From Bdellovibrio sp. ZAP7 (GTDB lineage Bacteria; Bdellovibrionota; FAC87; UBA2466), in NCBI GenBank assembly GCA_945878405.1, contig CAMCTJ010000011.1, forward strand, positions 1 through 62,364: 62,364 nucleotides of DNA. The letters are read 5' to 3'. This document shows positions 24,341 through 41,273 of this stretch, piece by piece. The notes under the pieces were generated by a model, which was not told where the DNA came from, did not search any database, and saw only the letters and a program-made list of their open reading frames with translations. Position numbers and translations under genes: made by a program. Within the stretch, counting starts at the first letter, position 1. Each line of letters opens with the position of its first letter.

Positions 24341-24416
24341 GGCCTTCTTTAACGTGTCATTAAAAACTGTATTATCGCAATTAGTTAGTAAGAAAAATTT
24401 GGCAAGGATCGGGTCC

Positions 24417-24992
24417 ATGGCAAAATCAAAAGTAAAAAAGCCTGCAAAAAAGAAAAAAGCTGCGCCAGCTAAAAAGCCTGCTGCTCCAAAAATGAAGGCA
24501 AAGGCGCCCATCGTAAAGACGGCCGCAAAAGTAAAAAAGCCAGTTGCTGAACCCAAGAAAAAAACTCAAGAAAAAAAGGAAACAAAGGGTCAGGTCACAG
24601 CCCCTTCCTCCAAAAAACAAGGTTCCTCGATGGCCAAGGAAACAAAAGCTACAGCGGCTCCCAAACGCCCTATTCTAGGACCCATCGAACCTGGTCGTTT
24701 AGGTCAAAAACGCAATTGCCTTGAGTGCGGTACGAAATTCTATGACTTTGAGCGCCTTCCTATTACTTGCCCTAAATGCTACTCGGAGTTTGAACCACAA
24801 GATTTTGAACCCAAAATCAATTTGAAGTCAGATTCAAAGAAAGCTCGTGCAGTTGAAAAGGAAGAAGAACCTGAAAGAGAATTAGTAGTCAGTGAGTCTT
24901 CAGAATTTGAAAGTCTAGAAGATTTAAACGACGACGATTCGGCTGTTGTGGGAATTGGCCCCGATAAAGACAGTGACGAAAGTTTTGATTAG
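24417..24992 (+). CDS. FYDLN-type zinc-ribbon protein with histone-H1-like tail
   Basis: 191 residues from the ATG at 24417 (AGGA upstream); a GTG at 24354 would add 21 residues. The first ~75 residues are lysine, alanine and proline repeats (KKPAKKKKAAPAKKPAAPK) like a histone H1 or bacterial nucleoid-protein tail. The middle has LGQKRNCLECGTKFYDFERLPITCPKC, matching the FYDLN_acid family (TIGR02300), here with two CxxC pairs that could hold zinc. The C-terminus is strongly acidic (DLNDDDSAVV). Function unknown; nucleic-acid binding by the basic tail is an inference. Confidence 0.75.
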   Translation: MAKSKVKKPAKKKKAAPAKKPAAPKMKAKAPIVKTAAKVKKPVAEPKKKTQEKKETKGQVTAPSSKKQGSSMAKETKATAAPKRPILGPIEPGRLGQKRNCLECGTKFYDFERLPITCPKCYSEFEPQDFEPKINLKSDSKKARAVEKEEEPERELVVSESSEFESLEDLNDDDSAVVGIGPDKDSDESFD

Positions 24993-25198
24993 GGCTTTTT
25001 AATAAGATCGGTTTTACGCTTCCCTGCGCTGGACTCTTTTCTAAAATTTCGTTGATTCGCTCGCTCTTGATAATCCATCATGAGCTTAATAAACAAAACA
25101 GTTATTGCTCCAGTGACAATGAAGAACCACTGAACCGGCGTGATACTTTCGAAAAACGATACAAGCCACTTCTGATTGTTTCCCATCTTAGGGTCCAT
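24989..25198 (-). CDS. Small membrane protein, unknown function
   Basis: 69 residues with one hydrophobic helix (VQWFFIVTGAITVLFIKLMM, about 22-41) and a basic C-terminal tail. It is the last gene of the minus-strand pilin-like cluster, overlapping the end of the preceding gene by 11 bases; an ATG at 25186 would remove the overlap. Its 3' end overlaps the convergent zinc-ribbon gene by four bases. No family is recognised; the context suggests a small accessory protein of the pilus-like system. Confidence 0.5.
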   Translation of the reverse strand: MDPKMGNNQKWLVSFFESITPVQWFFIVTGAITVLFIKLMMDYQERANQRNFRKESSAGKRKTDLIKKP

Positions 25199-26333
25199 TT
25201 TTTAATTTTAGCTTAAAAGGAATTTGGGGTTCAGAGTCCCCTCTCACACCCAGAATTGCCCCCGTGACGAGGATGGCTCCCATAAACCACCAAACCATTT
25301 TTTTATTGTACCATTTCTCTTCAGGGCCCGTAGAAAAAGAAGATGGGTTTGGGAAGGCAGAATCCTCACTTCGTAGAGGCCAATCGCTAAGTCCCGTTTG
25401 AGAGTTAAAATGATACTTTCCAATCTCTTTGGAATCCTCTGAAAGAATCAGCAGGTCCTTAGCCTTATCGAATTCCGATGGAATCAGATTCTCAATTCGA
25501 ACTTGATCTCTTATAGGTGCCCATACTTTACCTTTTTCATCTTGGATTACCCCTCCACATTTAATCACTCGCTCAAATACCTTTCCCTCACTTCCTCGTC
25601 TTATTACCAAATAGTTTCCCGGAAATATTTCTTTCCCCTGGGTAGCAATTCGAAATCCATTAATCCAACTGGGATAGGCTAGCTCAAACAACTCATCAAT
25701 CTGACGCAATTCACAGTTGTTTTTCGGATTGATTTGCACTTTTTTTAGACACTCACTCTCAAATACGTCTTTTAATGGCTCATCCATGAGGCGGTGGAAA
25801 TCAATTTCTCGCAAAGGATGTACTTCAGCTGCCTCCCGACAAAGACGTCCAAATTCCTTCATCTTTCGCTTTCTCCAAAACCATCCTGCTTGAACCAGCC
25901 GAGACAGCTGTATTTCGGGTCCAAAAGTGCCTCTCGGAAGTTGCGAACTACGCCGGTTGATTTCTTGAATCAGCGCCTGGGCCTCACTGTCAGCAGTCAT
26001 GGTTAGAGTTCTATCGCTAAAGGACTTTTGGGAAAGTTTCTGGTTGAGTTTGATTAATTCTTTCCTGACTTTTGCTAGCCGAAAGGTCTCCATTGGAATC
26101 ATAGAGGACGGCTGCGTTTTCATTACCCGTCGTCCCAGCTTATTTTCGATCTCATCGGTGAGTTGTCTCTCTATTTTTGCGTGCTGGTAAAGAGAGCCAT
26201 TGTGTTTTGTTTTTATCCATAAAAGCCCCACAGGGCCTGTATTTTTATCGGGTAGAGGAACAGCCAAAACAAGAGACTGCGCCCAACATAAGAGGACCGT
26301 TAGTTTTTTATGAGTGAGTAGAAAGGTTCTCAT
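25188..26333 (-). CDS. Secreted/anchored protein of the Flp-like cluster, unknown function
   Basis: 381 residues. A signal peptide (LTVLLCWAQSLVLA, about 11-24) leads a charged, helical exported domain, and a membrane helix (MVWWFMGAILVTGAILGV, about 348-365) lies near the C-terminus, so the bulk is probably periplasmic. It starts two bases before the end of the CpaB-like gene, implying a shared mRNA. No known fold is recognised. The position beside Flp-type pilin genes makes a role in pilus assembly plausible. Comparison with the Bdellovibrio host-interaction locus, which also sits beside an Flp pilin gene, would be worthwhile. Confidence 0.7.
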   Translation of the reverse strand: MRTFLLTHKKLTVLLCWAQSLVLAVPLPDKNTGPVGLLWIKTKHNGSLYQHAKIERQLTDEIENKLGRRVMKTQPSSMIPMETFRLAKVRKELIKLNQKLSQKSFSDRTLTMTADSEAQALIQEINRRSSQLPRGTFGPEIQLSRLVQAGWFWRKRKMKEFGRLCREAAEVHPLREIDFHRLMDEPLKDVFESECLKKVQINPKNNCELRQIDELFELAYPSWINGFRIATQGKEIFPGNYLVIRRGSEGKVFERVIKCGGVIQDEKGKVWAPIRDQVRIENLIPSEFDKAKDLLILSEDSKEIGKYHFNSQTGLSDWPLRSEDSAFPNPSSFSTGPEEKWYNKKMVWWFMGAILVTGAILGVRGDSEPQIPFKLKLKNGP

Positions 26334-26335
26334 TG

Positions 26336-27040
26336 CTACCCCTCCTCCAAAACTTGAATTGGACGTGGTTGTTTGGGGTTGGTTCTTTGCTTTTTAGATG
26401 GAGTTCGCGATTCGTCTTGAGGGTTTCTGAGAACTACTTCGACCCAACCCTCTTCAGAAAAAGATTCGATCTGATGAATGTCCCCAGGAGTCAGTGCAAC
26501 GAGCACTTCTTGGTGGTTCTCTTTTCTGCTTAAAGCCAGCACTCTCTTATCTTCTAGAAAAACCGTTGATTCTATTCCCCGTTCTGATTTTTTCCTAACT
26601 AGGTCAACCCGATCCCCTATTTCCAGAGGCAAACGGGACTGTGTTTTTATTAAAAATGCACGGAATCCCTTGGGGACCTTACGAGAGAAACTAAGCTCGC
26701 TGCTTTGCTGGAGCTGGGTTTTTAAAATGAGTGCGCCTGAAGGAATTTCAGCTAGTACCCGTTTTCCAATCACTTCATCGAGCTCTTGATCAGTGAAAGT
26801 AAGGTAACTGGATTCACCGCTGGAACTATCTACTCCAACTGTTAGGTCATGAACGGTTAATACAATGCCCGGCTTAAGATCACGTTTTGCTGCAAGCTTC
26901 CTAACCTCATTGCGCGGAGAAGCTCTCAATAGGTGATGCAATTCGACACTCATGACCAAAAGACAGACTCCGAAAAGCCACAATCTCGACAGAAGCGGTC
27001 TTTGCAACCATATTTTTTTTACCCTTTTTAGCGGTTCCAT
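26336..27040 (-). CDS. CpaB/RcpC-like pilus assembly protein (SAF domain)
   Basis: 234 residues: an N-terminal membrane helix (about 18-36) and then an SAF-type region, with AAKRDLKPGIVLTVHDLTV, IGKRVLAEIPSGALILKTQL and PKGFRAFLI, followed by a second domain (GDRVDLVRK...) and a basic tail. This is the order in CpaB/RcpC, a periplasmic component of Tad/Flp pili thought to act near the secretin. Its N-terminus overlaps the upstream prepilin-like gene by 13 bases. Confidence 0.75.
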   Translation of the reverse strand: MEPLKRVKKIWLQRPLLSRLWLFGVCLLVMSVELHHLLRASPRNEVRKLAAKRDLKPGIVLTVHDLTVGVDSSSGESSYLTFTDQELDEVIGKRVLAEIPSGALILKTQLQQSSELSFSRKVPKGFRAFLIKTQSRLPLEIGDRVDLVRKKSERGIESTVFLEDKRVLALSRKENHQEVLVALTPGDIHQIESFSEEGWVEVVLRNPQDESRTPSKKQRTNPKQPRPIQVLEEG

Positions 27041-27225
27041 AATCTTTTACCGTTGTAGACAATCCTTTGCTTTTGAATATTTTGGACTGCCTCTTTGTAA
27101 GGACTTAAATAAGTCTCAAAGCCGGCTTTCATGAGCGCGATAACTAAGAGCAAAATGAGAATTATCTCAATTAAGAGCATTCCCCGTTGATCTGGTTTTA
27201 CTTTGCCCATAACCGGTAATCCCAT
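27028..27225 (-). CDS. Small prepilin-like protein
   Basis: 65 residues. A basic leader ending in RG is followed by MLLIEIILILLLVIALM, so cleavage after the glycine would leave glutamate at position +5, the rule for prepilin-peptidase substrates. It resembles minor pseudopilins or TadE-type proteins but has a very short C-terminal part. It overlaps both neighbours (28 bases upstream, 13 downstream), consistent with a tight operon. Confidence 0.65.
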   Translation of the reverse strand: MGLPVMGKVKPDQRGMLLIEIILILLLVIALMKAGFETYLSPYKEAVQNIQKQRIVYNGKRLWNR

Positions 27226-27782
27226 TTGGTGGGAGCTTCGTTAACGAGTGAAACTGACACGCTTAAACTTCTCCCGCCGGGCTCAAACAAACGGCTTTTC
27301 GCTTCTGACAGGTGGGTTACGGTTAATCCGTTAACCTCACTACATGCCGGACAATGATTTTGCTTCAACGACAGTCCTGGGGCCCGTTTTAAATGAAGGT
27401 TTGGGGTGGTTAGACCCAGTTCCCTTTCCGCTATCGAAGTTCCCCTTGCCCAACTTTTTTTTGCTTTAAACCCGGATATTAGATTTAACCCGCGGATACT
27501 GGCCCTTAATGCCTTTGCCAGCTTCCCACAGCCGATAGCCGTAGGTGGTACCAAACTACAGGCGAGACTTTGATGGTACTTTTGATGAAGATTAGTGATT
27601 TCTTTTCGATCTCTCTCTAGTTCCTGCACTAAATTCAGATCACTCTGTCCTAAGCGAATTGCAGTATTATCCAAGACAATTTGAGTTCTCTGCCAGTCAA
27701 GTTCTCGATAGTATAATTCGGCCACCCAAGCCGCCCCAAAAATCATGGGCGTTGTAATTGCTAAGAAAAAGGAAATAAACAT
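27198..27782 (-). CDS. TadE/TadG-like exported protein, unknown function
   Basis: 194 residues with an N-terminal hydrophobic segment (about 2-20, FISFFLAITTPMIFGAAWV), followed by a mostly helical exported part with paired cysteines (SLACS, IGCGK, HCPAC). No processing glycine with +5 glutamate is seen, so it may be an anchor like TadG rather than a pilin. It overlaps the upstream pseudopilin gene by 22 bases. Assignment rests mainly on context. Confidence 0.6.
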   Translation of the reverse strand: MFISFFLAITTPMIFGAAWVAELYYRELDWQRTQIVLDNTAIRLGQSDLNLVQELERDRKEITNLHQKYHQSLACSLVPPTAIGCGKLAKALRASIRGLNLISGFKAKKSWARGTSIAERELGLTTPNLHLKRAPGLSLKQNHCPACSEVNGLTVTHLSEAKSRLFEPGGRSLSVSVSLVNEAPTKWDYRLWAK

Positions 27783-28201
27783 CTTTTAATAATCTCCTGA
27801 TGGTGTTTTCTTTTGCCCCGAAACTCAAAAGAAATAAATTGTTCATAACGTAGCCGTCGTTCCGTTAGTCCCCCAGGAAGCTTTCCCACGTTCAGCCAAC
27901 GAAGGTCCTTTGGATCCCTAATTCTCCTAAACTCCCTTTGCGATTCCCTGTCGATTTGTCTCCCAAGAACACCTCCAAGGGCTAAATCGAGAAAGCTCTG
28001 AGTCTCCCTATCGATTTCCTTTCCACTCTCACCCAAAGCCTTAGCCCGAGCCTCTGTACAAGTGATGTGAATCAAGAGTACCTGGAAGATCTCACGTCTA
28101 AATGCCTCCAAAAGAAAAAACATCATTAAGACAAATGGCATCAAAAGCATCACCGCTTCTATTAAAAAAAAACCACGAATGTTTCTTTTTATTCGGACCA
28201 T
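27761..28201 (-). CDS. TadE-like pseudopilin
   Basis: 146 residues starting with a basic leader (MVRIKRNIRG) and then FFLIEAVMLLMPFVLMMFFLLEA: glycine at the cleavage site and glutamate at +5 fit prepilin-peptidase processing, and the helix resembles TadE. The remainder is charged, with RESQREFRRIRDP. It overlaps the Flp pilin gene upstream by 13 bases. Likely a minor pilin of the Flp-type system encoded here. Confidence 0.7.
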   Translation of the reverse strand: MVRIKRNIRGFFLIEAVMLLMPFVLMMFFLLEAFRREIFQVLLIHITCTEARAKALGESGKEIDRETQSFLDLALGGVLGRQIDRESQREFRRIRDPKDLRWLNVGKLPGGLTERRLRYEQFISFEFRGKRKHHQEIIKRCLFPFS

Positions 28202-28455
28202 GAACTTCGGGATTTTTTCTTAGTTGTTTGGGCCCCTTCCATAAAGTCATCGAGGGCTCTGCCTTGAATCATAGGCTGTTGGACGTCAGTAAAATCGAAC
28301 TTCTTTTTTCCTTGAAGAGAATGTGCAACGTTAGCGTAAAGCTCTTTGATGTTAGCACCCACCACACTCACGATGGCGATGGAACTAATCGTAATAAGAC
28401 AAACCAAGACAAGGTATTCCACCAATCCCTGTCCCTTCTGATTTATTTTTGGCAT
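28189..28455 (-). CDS. Flp-type pilin
   Basis: 88 residues. The leader MPKINQKG is followed by QGLVEYLVLVCLITISSIA; cleavage after glycine gives QGLVEY with glutamate at +5 and tyrosine at +6, the type IVb Flp pilin hallmark. The mature protein would be about 80 residues, longer than many Flp pilins because of a basic C-terminal tail. It is the first gene of the minus-strand cluster, with AGGAGG before the ATG and a sigma-54-like promoter just upstream. Confidence 0.83.
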   Translation of the reverse strand: MPKINQKGQGLVEYLVLVCLITISSIAIVSVVGANIKELYANVAHSLQGKKKFDFTDVQQPMIQGRALDDFMEGAQTTKKKSRSSWSE

Positions 28456-28479
28456 TGAATCCCTCCTAGAGAAACTTTT

Positions 28480-28495
28480 TGCTAAGAGTGAGCCA
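28480..28495 (-). promoter_or_regulatory. Sigma-54-like promoter of the Flp pilin cluster
   Basis: Reading on the minus strand, TGGCTCACTCTTAGCA has GG and GC separated by exactly ten bases, as the sigma-54 -24/-12 elements require. Each half differs slightly from the TGGCAC / TTGCA consensus. The predicted start lies about 13 bases before the Flp pilin ATG, next to its AGGAGG. Pilin genes are common sigma-54 targets. Confidence 0.45.
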
Positions 28496-30521: not shown

Positions 30522-32525
30522 TTAAATCTTTTGTTTAAATGCAGATTCTGGGTTCAGAATTCTGGCAGTGATAAAAATGAGAACTTCATTTTGATCGATA
30601 GAAGTTTGCTGACTCGAAAACAGAGCCCCCAATAACGGAAGGTTTCTTAAAAAAGGCACTCCCGTATTGGAATCTTGCTCTTGGCCCGAGAAAACCCCCC
30701 CAAGAACAGCTGTATCCCCATTCTGAAGAATGATTTGGGTTTGAATAGAACGTGTATCTTTCGTTAGGGTAGTAAGGCTATTTTGAGGAATTTCCTGCAG
30801 CAGACTGGTTTGCAGGGCAATCGAGCCATCGTTAGAAACAATCGGGGTAACATTAAGAGAAAGATTTGCAGTTTGAGTTAATCCGGTAGTCACAGTTCCT
30901 ACGCCAGCAGCTTGCTGTGGCACATCGGTTGTTTTACCTTGAACAATTGACCCCTGTTGTCCCTGTTGGACGGTAATTGTGGGGTTGGCCAAAACCTTCA
31001 CCTTTCTATCAGTTTCACCCAAAATCAAGCGAGCCTGAAGGGCTGCAAATTTGGGAGCTGATAAATTAATGGTTCCTCCCGTAGGAAGAGCTTCAAATCC
31101 CGGTCCAGGAATGCTTGCTTGAGCAGAACCAAAATTAATTCCCGACGTTTGGCCAGCTAAATTTAAAAGCCCCAACCCAAGTGATTGGGTATACCCTTTT
31201 TTTACTTCAACGAACTTAGCAGAAATGGAAACAGCAGGAGGCTGCGTATCTAAGACAGCGAAAAGTTTTTGAAGGCGAGCAACAACGGATTCAACATCCC
31301 GAATAATAATGGTGTTTGTTCTCTCATCCGTATCTAATTTTCCTCTCTTAGAAAGAAAGGGCTGAGCTCGAGGAGCTAGTGCGGAGGATTTTGCGTAGCT
31401 AACCGGAATAAGAACCGTTTTAAGGGGTTCCAGTTCCTCTTGTTGTTCTAACTGAACTTGCTCGGCTTTGAGATTATCTAAACTTGCAACTCGAACGAGA
31501 TTTCCCTTGCGAACGAAGCCCAATTTCTTCATCTGGAGAATAATGTGCAAGGCCTGATCCCAGGGAACGTTTTGAAGGCTTAAGGAACCAATATTGCCTT
31601 TTACATCATCTCCCAAAACGACATTGTAGCCAGAGGACCGGACAACTAATTTAATGGCTTCAGCAACATCGGTATTTTTAAGCTCAAGTTTTTCAATCGG
31701 CTCTCCCCGATATCCTCGGCCAGAATCAAAGGCCTCTTCACCGAAAGAGGTCGCAGGAAGTTCGGACGCTATCAAGCGCTCAGGCTTGGACTTTGTTTGG
31801 TTTTCAAATTCCAAAACAAGTTTATCGCCAGTGTGAATTGCCTTAGGAAGAACGAACTCGCGCATTTGAACGATTAACTGGGTAGAGGGAATCTTCTTTT
31901 TTGCTGTCTGTTTCAAACTGTACTTCACAATAGGTGATTTAAACTCTTTAGTGTCGTACTCGCGTCTGAGCTTTTTAGGAGTACTGGTCTTTTCAAAAAC
32001 GTAGGTTATCTGCTTCGCAGTTCTTTTAGGTGTTATCCGATATTTTAAAGGGCCTGTAGCTTGCAAAACTATCTTATGGGCCTTTTCTTCAGTGAACAAA
32101 TCAACTGTTACCAGCTCGTTGTTTTTGTTGACTGACTTTTTTGCTTTTGGAATCGGAGCTCTGACCAACATTTTAGGGGTTGTCTTCTTCGGAGCAACCT
32201 TCACTGGCTCAACTTTCTCTGGGTTCTTTATGGGAATATCCGCTTTCATCTGCGGCAACGGATCGATAAGCCCTTCTGGTATGCCCAACTGAGTTTTTGC
32301 ATCTCGTTGAGCAGGGTTTTCTAGGAGCCCCTCTAGTTCACTGAGTAAATCGTTGGCGTCATCCTGACTTGCGGGTTTACGCTTATTTCCTCTTCCAGCG
32401 CCCTCAAAATCAAACTGCGGCACCACCAGTTCGGGGGCAGACTCTTTCTTGCGAGCTGAATCGGAAAAACCAAGTGAAGATGAAAGATAAAACATGAGGA
32501 CTAACCAATGCCATTTGTGATTCAT
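30522..32525 (-). CDS. pilQ: Type IV pilus secretin PilQ
   Basis: 667 residues. A signal peptide (about 1-21) is followed by a Lys/Pro-rich linker, one AMIN-like domain (about 145-250), the STN/N0 segment with IKLVVRSSGYNVVLGDDVKGNIGSLSLQNVPWDQALHIIL (split by eye at about 285-335), a secretin N-domain and the C-terminal secretin barrel (about 430-660; VPFLRNLPLLGALFSS is the classic motif). It forms the outer-membrane pore of the type IVa pilus. It is 12 bases after pilP. Confidence 0.93.
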   Translation of the reverse strand: MNHKWHWLVLMFYLSSSLGFSDSARKKESAPELVVPQFDFEGAGRGNKRKPASQDDANDLLSELEGLLENPAQRDAKTQLGIPEGLIDPLPQMKADIPIKNPEKVEPVKVAPKKTTPKMLVRAPIPKAKKSVNKNNELVTVDLFTEEKAHKIVLQATGPLKYRITPKRTAKQITYVFEKTSTPKKLRREYDTKEFKSPIVKYSLKQTAKKKIPSTQLIVQMREFVLPKAIHTGDKLVLEFENQTKSKPERLIASELPATSFGEEAFDSGRGYRGEPIEKLELKNTDVAEAIKLVVRSSGYNVVLGDDVKGNIGSLSLQNVPWDQALHIILQMKKLGFVRKGNLVRVASLDNLKAEQVQLEQQEELEPLKTVLIPVSYAKSSALAPRAQPFLSKRGKLDTDERTNTIIIRDVESVVARLQKLFAVLDTQPPAVSISAKFVEVKKGYTQSLGLGLLNLAGQTSGINFGSAQASIPGPGFEALPTGGTINLSAPKFAALQARLILGETDRKVKVLANPTITVQQGQQGSIVQGKTTDVPQQAAGVGTVTTGLTQTANLSLNVTPIVSNDGSIALQTSLLQEIPQNSLTTLTKDTRSIQTQIILQNGDTAVLGGVFSGQEQDSNTGVPFLRNLPLLGALFSSQQTSIDQNEVLIFITARILNPESAFKQKI

Positions 32526-32537
32526 AAACGCCCCTCT

Positions 32538-32963
32538 TTATTTGTCGCTTAACGTATCGTCCATGGGAATAGACAGTACTTTTTCTGTGAGTCCTTGATG
32601 TCCCAAATAATTCGTAACTTTCTCAGTGAGAATAACTTCCTTGTCCAAAATCCGACTTATCGTAGCGTGAGCACGTCCCAACTCGTCTCCTTCTTTCAAA
32701 ATGTAGGTATTTCCCTTGGGGTCAGAGATTAGGATCTGACTGGATTCGGCATTTTTTAAGACTGCTTTCAGTTCAAATTGCTCGACTTGATAACGAAACA
32801 AATCACTTTCAGCGGATGCCGGATCTCGAAGATTCAATCTCGGAATCTGAAAGGGATCCCTTTTTCCAATGGGTGAGTAAACGGAACTAGCCTCACTAGC
32901 AAAAGAAAGAGTGCTGGATTTCATCATCCATACACCTAAAATTAAAATTCCTTTAATCCTCAT
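32538..32963 (-). CDS. pilP: Type IV pilus protein PilP
   Basis: 141 residues with a signal peptide (about 1-22) and the PilP signature YSPIGKRDPFQIP followed by a small beta domain (LKAVLKNAESSQILISDPKGNTYILKEGDELG). PilP connects the inner-membrane PilMNO complex with the secretin. Unlike the usual form no lipobox cysteine is seen; the protein contains no cysteine at all, so it may be soluble periplasmic or anchored by an uncleaved signal. It overlaps pilO by four bases. Confidence 0.85.
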   Translation of the reverse strand: MRIKGILILGVWMMKSSTLSFASEASSVYSPIGKRDPFQIPRLNLRDPASAESDLFRYQVEQFELKAVLKNAESSQILISDPKGNTYILKEGDELGRAHATISRILDKEVILTEKVTNYLGHQGLTEKVLSIPMDDTLSDK

Positions 32964-33547
32964 GTATCACTTAATCGATAAGCTCGTAACTTAACGCTCG
33001 TATCTGCGCTGGGTGTTTCTTTGCCCTGGCTTGCCGTTCCACGCTGCGCGGTTATTCGTATCTCATCAAATGCTACCACCCGTTTTAACTTGGAAATCTG
33101 ATCTAGAAACACGAGTGTGGGTACAAACCCCCCTCTTAAACTCAAATCAATGGTGGCGCTTTTGAAATACCCCTGATCATGTTCTCCTGATTGGGGTCTA
33201 AATCCAGCAATCTCGATTCCTGAACTCTGAGCCAGCAAGTTAAACTTCTTTAATAGAACGTTGAATTCGAAAGATCTCGGAATAGATTCCAAAACAGACT
33301 CAAGTTGCAAGCTCTGTTCTCGAAAGCTTTGCTTTACGGCAGGAATATTATCAGCGAATTTTTTAATTTTGGTTAATTCGGATTTGAGACTGGAAACTTC
33401 ACGATCCATGTTGGCTATTTCCTCAGACATAGATTGTGCTTGTCCACTGTTAAACTCGGAGAAGGAATACGCTCCATAGATCGCGCCTCCGATGAGAATA
33501 AGAACTGCGCTCATCACTTTATTTCTCAAAATTACTTTCATGATCAT
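32960..33547 (-). CDS. pilO: Type IV pilus alignment protein PilO
   Basis: 195 residues: a membrane helix (about 11-28), a coiled-coil segment (MSEEIANMDREVSSLKSELTKIKKF) and a ferredoxin-like periplasmic domain (LLKKFNLLAQSSGIEIAGFRPQ; VPTLVFLDQISKLKRVVAFDEIRI). It pairs with PilN in the inner-membrane platform. It overlaps pilN by four bases and pilP by four. Confidence 0.87.
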   Translation of the reverse strand: MIMKVILRNKVMSAVLILIGGAIYGAYSFSEFNSGQAQSMSEEIANMDREVSSLKSELTKIKKFADNIPAVKQSFREQSLQLESVLESIPRSFEFNVLLKKFNLLAQSSGIEIAGFRPQSGEHDQGYFKSATIDLSLRGGFVPTLVFLDQISKLKRVVAFDEIRITAQRGTASQGKETPSADTSVKLRAYRLSDT

Positions 33548-34224
33548 CTCTGGGTTTTGGAAGCTGTTTCTCTTTGTTCTTTTTTAAAGCTTTTGAAAGC
33601 TTTGGGAAAAGCCGTGAACGAAAAATTTTTAATATCTTCTTTACCGGCTGATTTCTCTCCCGAAACTTCTTTGAGCTCTACATTTTGAAAATAAATCGAG
33701 TTACCGAGCTTCTCTGCAAAGTCTGTGACATCATCGCTTGAATAGGATGATCCAGAAAATTGAAGAGAGGGTTCGGGCTCAGCAGCCAAAGTAATTTGAT
33801 GTAACCAGGCTCCTGAAGGTAGGCTCTGGCCGATGGCATCTAACGTATTTACGGGTCCGCTTCGGGACGATAAGAGCTCGTTTACTGCTGCAAGTCTCTG
33901 CGCGAGAAGCGAACTTTGCTTCTCAAAGTTGTCCAGCTCTGCTTTGTAAGAATTATATTTAGAAATATCCTGTCTTAGGTTGTTTTGTTCATCAGACAGT
34001 TGGGCTTTGGTGGCTTCATGCTTTTGTAGGGTTCGTTCTTTGAATTGTTCCACAAAAAGATGCGGTAAAAGAGCAAATGCGATGGCCCCTAGAAGTAACA
34101 AGATTCCCCCAATATCCGTCTTTTCAATCTTTAATTGGTTGAGCAATGGCAAGCCTTTGAAAGGCTTCCCTTTTGAGGTAGCTCTTCTCTGCTCAGGATT
34201 TTTTCCCAAATCAATACGTATCAT
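33544..34224 (-). CDS. pilN: Type IV pilus assembly protein PilN
   Basis: 226 residues. The N-terminus MIRIDLGKNP is the PilM-binding motif (usually INLLPWR-like, here simplified). A membrane helix lies at about 39-58, then a coiled-coil (about 60-110) and a periplasmic ferredoxin-like domain (LDAIGQSLPSGAWLHQITL). It lies directly after pilM with no gap and overlaps pilO by four bases. Confidence 0.86.
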   Translation of the reverse strand: MIRIDLGKNPEQRRATSKGKPFKGLPLLNQLKIEKTDIGGILLLLGAIAFALLPHLFVEQFKERTLQKHEATKAQLSDEQNNLRQDISKYNSYKAELDNFEKQSSLLAQRLAAVNELLSSRSGPVNTLDAIGQSLPSGAWLHQITLAAEPEPSLQFSGSSYSSDDVTDFAEKLGNSIYFQNVELKEVSGEKSAGKEDIKNFSFTAFPKAFKSFKKEQRETASKTQR

Positions 34225-35301
34225 TTAGTGATCCCCTGACTTTCTCAAAGACAGCCCAGTCGCTACCGCTCCGAGATAGGCAATTTCTTGTATCGCAATT
34301 TGATTCACTTGGTGTCCTGTACCCACAATGTGTTTTAGGGGATTTAACAAGTAGACGGGAGCTGGCATTTTTTCTTTTAAAACCTCATTTAATCCCAGCA
34401 AATTTACTCCCCCGCCGCAGGTAAAGATCGCATCAACGGAACGGTCATTGGCCTGGCTCAAAAAAAAATCAATTGATTTCGAAATTTCATCTGAAATTAA
34501 ATGACTGTATTCAATCAAAAGGGGCCGAATACTGGGATCCGATGCTTTTTCTATCTTTAGTCTTTCCGCATCTTCTAAATTCACACCAAATTTTTCCATG
34601 ATAATTTCGGTACACTGAGTGCCGCAATGCTGGATATCTCGACTAAAGGTGGTCTGGTGCCCTTCAATCACTGAAATTTTTGTAGATCCTGCACCAAAAT
34701 CAATCAGAACCGCAGTAGTGCACCCTTGTTCTTTAAGCCACGAGTGATAATTAAACTCAAAAGAATTGCCTAAAGCGAAAGCTTGGGTATCTACGATCAC
34801 CGGATTCAACCCAGCTTCTTTCACCAATGATTTGAGAGAATTTACGAAATCTTTTTTAGCCGCCACCAAAAGGACATCCATTTTGGGTTCCTGCGCCAGG
34901 GTTTGCGTGTTAGGCCCCAAAATCGCAAAATCTAGATTTACTTCATCGGTATTAAATGGAATGTATTGCTCAGCTTCCCAGTACAGCTGTTCATCTAGTT
35001 CCTCTTCTGTCATCATCGGAACGCTGATTCTTTTACTGATGATCGAACGCCCAAATGCACTAACAGAGACATTTTTTGAGCTGAAATTGCCAACGGAGAA
35101 AAGTTTTTTGAGTGCTTGAACCAGCGCATTTCGATCTTTTATTTCGCCCTCAATCGAGATGGTATCCCAGTTCAGGGGAATTCTATTGTAAGCCAATAGC
35201 CGAGGTGATTTTTCTGAACTGATTTCAACGGCCTTAATCCCAGAAATACCAATATCTAGGCCGACCAATTGTTTTTTCAAAAGTGAGTCCAGAAAACGCA
35301 T
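34225..35301 (-). CDS. pilM: Type IV pilus actin-like ATPase PilM
   Basis: 358 residues from the ATG at 35301, which has AGAGGA six bases upstream; the upstream TTG start lacks such support. Actin-fold motifs are LVGLDIGISGIKAVEIS at the start, VLIDFGAGSTKISVIEG in the middle and TCGGGVNLLGLNEVLKE near the end. PilM is cytoplasmic and anchors the PilN tail. It opens the pilMNOPQ operon. Confidence 0.93.
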   Translation of the reverse strand: MRFLDSLLKKQLVGLDIGISGIKAVEISSEKSPRLLAYNRIPLNWDTISIEGEIKDRNALVQALKKLFSVGNFSSKNVSVSAFGRSIISKRISVPMMTEEELDEQLYWEAEQYIPFNTDEVNLDFAILGPNTQTLAQEPKMDVLLVAAKKDFVNSLKSLVKEAGLNPVIVDTQAFALGNSFEFNYHSWLKEQGCTTAVLIDFGAGSTKISVIEGHQTTFSRDIQHCGTQCTEIIMEKFGVNLEDAERLKIEKASDPSIRPLLIEYSHLISDEISKSIDFFLSQANDRSVDAIFTCGGGVNLLGLNEVLKEKMPAPVYLLNPLKHIVGTGHQVNQIAIQEIAYLGAVATGLSLRKSGDH

Positions 35302-35383
35302 GTTTCCTCTTTTTGAAACCAAGCTAATTGTATGTAACTTAAGAGCTAGAATCCCTTGATGGGGTACAGATGTGCTTTTCTTA

Positions 35384-40335: not shown

Positions 40336-40351
40336 TGGCACCCTGCTTGCA
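40336..40351 (+). promoter_or_regulatory. Sigma-54 promoter (near-perfect -24/-12)
   Basis: TGGCACCCTGCTTGCA matches the RpoN consensus TGGCAC-N5-TTGCA fully, with GG and GC separated by ten bases. The start site would be near 40362, about 20 bases before the ATG of the secreted thioredoxin-like protein. It is the strongest promoter match in the window. Confidence 0.8.
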
Positions 40352-40382: not shown

Positions 40383-41273
40383 ATGATTCGAAGTCTTTTG
40401 ATAGGTCTCGGCATCGTGTTTCTGATCTCCGCTCCTCAGGGATTTTCAGAGCCCGCCCCCAAAGAACCTACTAATAAATTGCTTCATATGTATGAGCTTT
40501 TCTACCTGCCCTTTACTATCGAGTTTAAACAAGGCCGAACTTACAACGATATTTTTCCACTCGTTGCGGATAAAAAAGGGGAATTTACGCGACTGATCAC
40601 CCCTGAACAGTTAAAAGCACTCGATCACGAATTTACTTCCGAACGAAAAAGCTGGCAAAAATCTTCTTTGTTTCTCAGTACGCCCTTGGAAGCCAATGAG
40701 TCCCAACAAATTACTCAGCGCTTGTTTTCTCATCGCATTTCATTAAAAAGAACGGCCTGGGATCAAGTTTCAGTAGCCGATCAAATCAAAGTGAAAGCCC
40801 TCCTGGATGGAAAACCAGAAATGGTAAAAAAAGCTGTGACTCAATACCAGTTTCTGAGAAGCCTCATGAAAGGCGCAGATGAAGACAAATTTAACTTTTT
40901 TATTATTGGTCCTTCTTGGTGTGAAAGCTCAAAAGAGTATCGCTACCTATTGGAATACTACTCAAAAAAGTTTCCTCAAAACCAATTAGTCCTTCATTCC
41001 GTGGTGGTTGATGACCCCCAAGAACAAATTTTTGGTTCTCAACTACTTAAGGATCTTTTTCCTTTTCCAGAAAACTATTCTCACGATAGCGTTCCGCGTT
41101 TTCTGGCCTTCCAAAAAGACCGGGGACAACTGAAGGTTTGGGAAGAAGGCGACGCTCTCGTCGAGCTTAAAAATCGATTTTTTGCCCAACACCGAGGTTT
41201 TCTAGACTCCTCTCTCCCCATCATGAGAAAAGTTTCCCTACCAAATAAGTTTTTGGCCACCACCGGCCCATAA
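40383..41273 (+). CDS. Secreted thioredoxin-fold-like protein, sigma-54 controlled
   Basis: 296 residues from the ATG at 40383, which begins a clear signal peptide (MIRSLLIGLGIVFLISAPQGFSEP). The N-terminal part is unrecognised; the C-terminal half (about 170-260) looks like a thioredoxin-type fold: NFFIIGPSWCESSKEYRYLL then LVLHSVVVDDP and VPRFLAF. It has a single cysteine in WCESS instead of CxxC, so disulfide exchange of the usual kind is unlikely. The sigma-54 promoter is immediately upstream. Function unknown. Confidence 0.72.
   Translation: MIRSLLIGLGIVFLISAPQGFSEPAPKEPTNKLLHMYELFYLPFTIEFKQGRTYNDIFPLVADKKGEFTRLITPEQLKALDHEFTSERKSWQKSSLFLSTPLEANESQQITQRLFSHRISLKRTAWDQVSVADQIKVKALLDGKPEMVKKAVTQYQFLRSLMKGADEDKFNFFIIGPSWCESSKEYRYLLEYYSKKFPQNQLVLHSVVVDDPQEQIFGSQLLKDLFPFPENYSHDSVPRFLAFQKDRGQLKVWEEGDALVELKNRFFAQHRGFLDSSLPIMRKVSLPNKFLATTGP

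Follow-up and report, generated by a model that had tools for sequence, protein, structure and literature searches.

A conserved Flp-type pilin operon of Bdellovibrionota and its probable place in a second, scattered Tad pilus machine

Which machine assembles a set of pilins whose operon holds neither motor nor platform genes? The question is raised by contig CAMCTJ010000011.1 of Bdellovibrio sp. ZAP7 (assembly GCA_945878405.1), a stretch of 62,364 nucleotides (nt), here called the window, which carries an operon for an Flp-type pilin and accompanying proteins; a family profile search found no TadA and no TadB/C within it. The window is the entire contig C11 of G000, a 2.24-Mb metagenome-assembled genome of 24 contigs that is 95.75% complete. 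An earlier note on this DNA (the original prediction) had proposed that the machinery lies elsewhere. We read the operon, with a probability of about three in four, as coding for the pilins of a second Tad/Flp-type pilus machine of Bdellovibrionota (Tad2) whose genes are scattered, the best reading being a split over two or three loci.

The pilin operon and its conservation

Seven open reading frames (ORFs) on the minus strand (24989-28455) form one run in the ORF map, neighbours either overlapping or lying 2 nt apart. From the 5′ end, they encode an Flp-type major pilin of 88 amino acids (aa; P0001, 28189-28455) with the cleavage motif G↓QGLVEY, a TadE-like minor pilin (146 aa, P0002, 27761-28201) with G↓FFLIE and Glu at +5, both motifs being read by eye, a TadG-like protein (194 aa, P0003, 27198-27782), a small TadF-like pseudopilin (65 aa, P0004, 27028-27225) with G↓MLLIE, Glu at +5 and counterparts in relatives, a CpaB/RcpC-like protein with an SAF domain (234 aa, 26336-27040), a 381-aa exported protein with a signal peptide and a C-terminal membrane helix (25188-26333), and a 69-aa product (24989-25198), the run's last gene, whose homologues are in place in relatives. 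The single operon with an Flp pilin and two prepilin-like proteins carrying Glu at +5 is therefore as the original prediction described it; of its two exported proteins, the 381-aa product is exported, whereas the 69-residue product looks like a one-segment membrane protein.

Homology searches with the CpaB-like protein gave matches in 11 of 78 genomes, every one from the taxonomic order of the window (hereafter the order). In ten relatives, gene content, gene order and flanks are all as in the window, though contig ends truncate the locus in G002 and G013. Two more genomes whose loci contain the operon, G005 and G006, came from a profile search and a pilin search, and in G003 the end of a 381-aa homologue was found at a contig end. 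Counting the window's own genome, 14 of the order's 15 genomes accordingly have the cluster (13 relatives; G002, G003 and G013 cut by contig ends). Because the block recurs with its flanks in 13 relatives, the operon is not a chance arrangement. The remaining genome, G010, lacks the cluster; the flanking DegQ gene is likewise missing there, so the cluster is probably unassembled in that genome.

As judged by sequence profiles, CpaB is the best supported member of the operon: the window protein matches TIGR03177 (E 2.1e-10, short of the curated cut-off) and SAF (E 2.2e-5), and all 11 members of its family match TIGR03177, in line with the earlier naming. The window pilin itself matches Flp_Fap only at E 0.042, below the Pfam cut-off, and is called Flp because its relatives carry the signature (Flp_Fap matched by 5/9 family members, a class III signal by 8/9). 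The names TadE and TadG are weak. Pfam TadE is matched by one of nine members of the TadE-like family, at E 0.036 only, and a profile search of the TadG-like family gave no convincing Pfam family. Relatedness to Flp pili by profile thus holds for Flp and CpaB, whereas the TadE-, TadF- and TadG-like names are weak or without profile support. For the TadG-like protein, the name is backed by operon position and predicted shape and not by profiles. Its family is conserved within the order, and P0003 has no clear cleavage motif by eye; its AlphaFold2 model (predicted local distance difference test score, pLDDT, 88.8) has a long N-terminal helix, a second helix and a C-terminal beta part with CxxC.

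The 381-aa product, which the original prediction had singled out as least explained, was modelled (pLDDT 72.7) with TPR-like helices at residues 88-200, a C-terminal beta part and one C-terminal membrane helix. Its family shows weak TPR matches in 2/11 members, weak PEGA matches in 2/11 and a conserved WYN...W in the tail. Foldseek returned no match at E 0.001 or better for this model or for the TadG-like one. The best VIA Z values, 9.0 (reached by residues 88-200 of the 381-aa model) and 7.7 (TadG-like), fall within the chance range for helical models, so that only the term TPR-like is retained for these residues. A pilin fold was absent from the fold-search lists, which counts as no evidence against such a fold. 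We regard the 381-aa protein as a candidate periplasmic assembly factor.

A second set of secretin, ATPase and platform genes

To locate export genes, the T2SSE, secretin and T2SSF families were searched by profile across the contigs of G000. Type IVa pilB, pilT and pilC lie on C20 and type II secretion genes on C1, and there are two Tad-type secretin/TadA pairs. The first belongs to a canonical Tad system on C12 (Tad1) with two flp, cpaA, tadE, further pilins, two cpaB, cpaC, a cpaE-F fusion and tadB; its tadC is on C2, with FHA proteins. The second, on C8 (128293-130303), consists of a short secretin of 348 aa followed by a TadA of 339 aa (TadA2) that matches only T2SSE and generic ATPase families. 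A further TadB and TadC (TadB2, TadC2) lie on C5 (10299-11554). A second set of machinery genes thus exists elsewhere in the genome, as had been foreseen. No full tad locus adjoins the operon: the window is a whole contig, and none lies beside the relatives' loci that were read.

The short secretin was found in 14/15 genomes of the order, all but G005 (73% complete), with at least 214 bits, the best score outside the order being 110.6. TadA2 lies directly behind it in all 13 genomes whose sequence covers the position, a count that leaves out G009 (whose sequence stops at the secretin) and G005 (no secretin). TadB2 is present in 13/15, being absent in G005 and G008. In G001 and G002, the secretin-TadA2 and TadB2-TadC2 pairs share one contig, 15-19 kb apart, and enclose prfA, murA and other cell-wall genes (named by eye). 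Because C8 of G000 ends within this prfA/murA gene series and C5 starts with murA, the two contigs are probably neighbours, with the pairs ~16 kb apart.

Among the features expected of a Tad/Flp system, an Flp pilin with G↓xxxxEY, a CpaB/RcpC protein and a TadA/TadB/TadC/secretin set in addition to Tad1 were found. Compared with Tad1, the proposed Tad2 shares Flp, CpaB, a secretin with PF13629, TadA, TadB and TadC; it differs in being split, in a secretin of 348 rather than 544 aa, in a TadA2 without the fused MinD-like part and in that no CpaA or CpaE was seen in the loci read. Walker A is kept in TadA2 in 12/12 rows from the order (slightly altered in G014) and in 4/4 Bdellovibrio rows. In a TadA tree, the Tad1 ATPases form one clade (98/95, 16 rows) and both TadA2 groups, from the order and from Bdellovibrio, fall outside it, so that TadA2 is no recent copy of Tad1.

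Several features of Tad1 were recorded in passing. Its ATPase (locus L021, 9614-11782, on C12) is a MinD/CpaE-like part fused to TadA, and the TadA part is kept phylum-wide at 61-95% identity. An RHS/YD-repeat-like protein (by eye; L021, 12627-14438) adjoins tadB and recalls Bd0109 beside the HD100 Tad locus (PMC3818213). The tadC gene, far from its own locus (L025, 8160-14102, on C2), is followed by three FHA-like proteins (by eye).

The flp3 locus of Bdellovibrio

Alignment of the Flp family against GTDB genomes gave 34 loci, mostly in Bdellovibrionota, B. bacteriovorus kdesi among them. In G074, taken as B. bacteriovorus HD100, the window's Flp family matched at 3.216 Mb (E 5.6e-24), 0.106 Mb (E 0.27) and 2.641 Mb (E 0.57), and fliA was found at 3.233 Mb. 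In HD100, flp3 is bd3297, flp1 bd0119, flp4 bd2719-2720 and fliA bd3318 (PMC5430801), and the three pilin positions fit flp3, flp1 of the hit locus and flp4, respectively. The counterpart of the window pilin, assigned by map position and not by label, fits flp3 (bd3297). The hit-locus Flp genes suggested for comparison by the original prediction were therefore the wrong partner: flp1 was rejected since the window pilin fits the 3.216-Mb pilin far better. The flp4 gene was rejected likewise (E 0.57 against 5.6e-24), and the HD100 flp4 locus is without such an operon. A lone Flp-like pilin outside both Tad sets of G000 (L237, 9273-9461, on C5) is possibly flp4-like.

Downstream of the 3.216-Mb pilin come genes for TadE-like, TadG-like, pseudopilin, CpaB-like and membrane-tailed exported proteins, then ~3 genes, a secretin and TadA. 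The names pilQ and cpaF given to bd3306 and bd3307 (PMC3818213) agree with the last two. In three genomes (HD100, G055 and the exovorus-like G018), one locus holds both the pilin cluster and the secretin-TadA2 pair, which are thus physically linked with ~7 kb between them. The proposed comparison of gene order also held: of the 34 loci, 13 of Bdellovibrio type were read, and these keep the order of gene types after Flp, although the small pseudopilin can be made out in some of them only. Profile-profile comparison of the order's families with those of Bdellovibrio gave probabilities of 92 for the TadE-like and 67 for the CpaB-like protein, as against 0.1 for two off-diagonal controls. From these probabilities and those given below for the TadG-like and 381-aa families, we infer that the two operons are of the same kind, with two members having drifted past recognition. 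The flp3 locus thus resembles the window in its best-matching pilin, the same gene-type order and the secretin and TadA homologues downstream; it differs in minor pilins and a 381-aa protein that are hardly recognisable, in having no sigma-54-like site 5′ of flp, and in the partitioning of genes over loci, the window genome's secretin and TadA being on another contig.

In the literature searched, which excluded supplements and most subscription journals, PMC5430801 was the sole paper to mention Bdellovibrio flp3 and PMC3818213 the sole one to mention bd3304-bd3309. The parts are of known kinds, and flp3, bd3306 and bd3307 have each been published on their own; their membership in one split machine was not met in these searches, nor was the conserved promoter in a sister order.

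Promoter-like sites, competing readings and proposed working

Sigma-54 promoters have GG and GC ten bases apart in the consensus TGGCAC-N5-TTGCW. A -24/-12 promoter-like site of this type, TGGCTCACTCTTAGCA (TGGCTC-N5-TAGCA, 28480-28495, minus strand), with exact GG and GC spacing, lies 24 nt 5′ of the flp start codon. A -24/-12 site begins 50-78 nt 5′ of the GQG codons in 11/11 genomes of the order read, and its score is convincing in 10 of them (weak in G004); the sigma-54-like promoter announced earlier is thereby supported by conservation. With hand-set scoring weights, 4 of 1000 shuffled versions of the flp upstream region reached its best score; the pattern itself occurs three times in the window against 0.33 expected. 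Over the whole window, six sites reach the flp-site score or more against a shuffle mean of 4.05. The argument for the flp site therefore comes from conservation and not from score.

Upstream of the secretin operon, a sigma-54-like site is present in 10/11 usable regions; of 342 control genes, 46 reach that score. Twelve such regions were scored; L061 was dropped (its upstream DNA is too short and its site misplaced), and L053 and L054 are near-copies among the remaining 11. Two secretin loci and two TadB2 loci had no anchor and were left unscored. Since sites are conserved at both the pilin cluster and the secretin operon, sigma-54 control of shaft and channel-motor together is likely, as far as sequence can tell. 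No such site was seen upstream of flp in HD100, kdesi and G018 (0/3), and a site-less flp3 would fit its reported silence. The activator motif GAFTGA did not occur in ten stretches of G000, and a scan for sigma-70 promoters and terminators stayed at chance level.

The most serious alternative, still an unlikely one, is that these pilins add further subunits or a substitute tip to Tad1, the canonical, hit-locus type of system on C12. Tad1 is complete except for the tadC on C2, no CpaA was seen in the loci read apart from its own, and in Myxococcus paralogous tip clusters distant from the core genes serve one machine (PMC12075869). Against this, the cluster carries its own Flp and CpaB, adjoins the second secretin and ATPase in Bdellovibrio, and flp genes do not substitute for one another (PMC5430801).

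Export by the neighbouring type IVa machinery, which the original prediction had kept as its other option, is a good deal less probable. CpaB and Flp proteins, as found in this cluster, belong to Tad systems and not to type IVa pili. The pilMNOPQ operon does lie nearby, both here and in relatives with long enough contigs, and it includes a secretin at 30522-32525 that is PilQ-like (TIGR02515, E 1.3e-76, below cut-off) and in one run with PilM; the statement that the window has no secretin was thus mistaken, although it stands for TadA and TadB/C. However, the homologous Bdellovibrio cluster is beside its own Tad-type secretin and ATPase, not beside pil genes. The cluster contains proteins of Flp and CpaB type rather than a type IVa pilin and its PilB, PilC and PilQ partners, and pilB, pilT and pilC lie on C20. 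A relic, or a Tad-derived secretion device past pilus making, is harder still to credit: although TadA2, TadB2 and the minor pilins diverge fast, TadC2 is short and HD100 flp3 is reportedly silent and not needed for predation (PMC5430801), the reading frames are uninterrupted in those relatives that were read, Walker A and the promoter-like sites are kept, and bd3307 cpaF is expressed, since it appears among the genes whose level in host-independent strains is below that in attack phase (PMC3818213).

The reported silence of flp3 also weighs against a second Tad machine, as do several other results. No single contiguous locus with pilins, secretin, TadA, TadB and TadC was found, and no prepilin peptidase (CpaA/TadV) or CpaE/TadZ could be identified from the ORFs at the three Tad2 loci read, a genome-wide family search not having been made. 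The TadA tree fails to unite the TadA2 of the order with that of Bdellovibrio, whose branch is very long. In the profile-profile comparison, the 381-aa family reached 50.5 through its membrane tail only and the TadG-like family 0.6. TadB2 was not found in HD100, where the TadC2 call is weak (E 1.7e-4); TadC2 of G000, taken alone, matches T2SSF at only E 0.013. Finally, TadB2 has no conserved sigma-54-like site (1/11 regions).

If the operon does serve a second Tad machine, we infer that its proteins work together and make a pilus, as follows. Flp would be the shaft, and the TadE-, TadG- and TadF-like proteins would start and cap the fibre, forming the initiating tip. By analogy with Tad systems in general, TadA2 with TadB2/TadC2 would power Flp polymerisation, and the fibre would leave through the short secretin assisted by the CpaB-like protein. 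The latter and the 381-aa protein may form a lining or support for the outer-membrane channel; the 381-aa protein might act as a periplasmic assembly factor, perhaps in TadD's place, which is a guess. Prepilins would be cleaved by a shared peptidase, and the pilin and secretin-ATPase operons are probably turned on jointly by sigma-54. A role in prey contact or surface sensing is suggested by lineage only.

More tentatively, the Tad-type pili of Bdellovibrionota might number two. One is the known predation machine, which FliA controls in Bdellovibrio; the other, with its genes scattered, would have a shaft, tip, channel and motor of its own. The latter, run by sigma-54 in the window's order and pilin-silent in laboratory HD100, would be a conditional weapon or sensor against untried prey or surfaces, with flp3 as its shaft. 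With the operon read as part of Tad2 and conserved across a whole order, flp3, previously regarded as an orphan and a silent pilin without a machine, gains partners (bd3306/bd3307-type genes), a likely switch and a testable purpose. On this reading, Tad systems can persist with pilins, channel-motor and platform apart, a split that locus-based annotation misses. The Kil system of Myxococcus xanthus, compared by description, is likewise a Tad-type pilus with divided genes, whose secretin is short and whose tip is made of minor pilins (PMC8460266, PMC12075869); the Kil ATPase has an FHA domain, unlike TadA2, and FHA proteins are over-represented around the Kil genes (PMC8460266).

Beyond the operon, another, near-perfect sigma-54-type site, TGGCACCCTGCTTGCA (40336-40351, plus strand), lies ~33 nt 5′ of the start codon (ATG at 40384) of an exported-looking protein of ~295 aa that has no Pfam match. 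The 5′ end of the run lies below PhaR-like and pilMNOPQ genes. The pilMNOPQ operon (30522-35322, minus strand), whose members neighbour the cluster in relatives too, was assigned by profile for PilQ and PilM (34225-35322) and by position only for N, O and P. At its 3′ end, the run faces a convergent gene for an FYDLN/TIGR02300-family protein (24354-24992, plus strand), a flank conserved in relatives.

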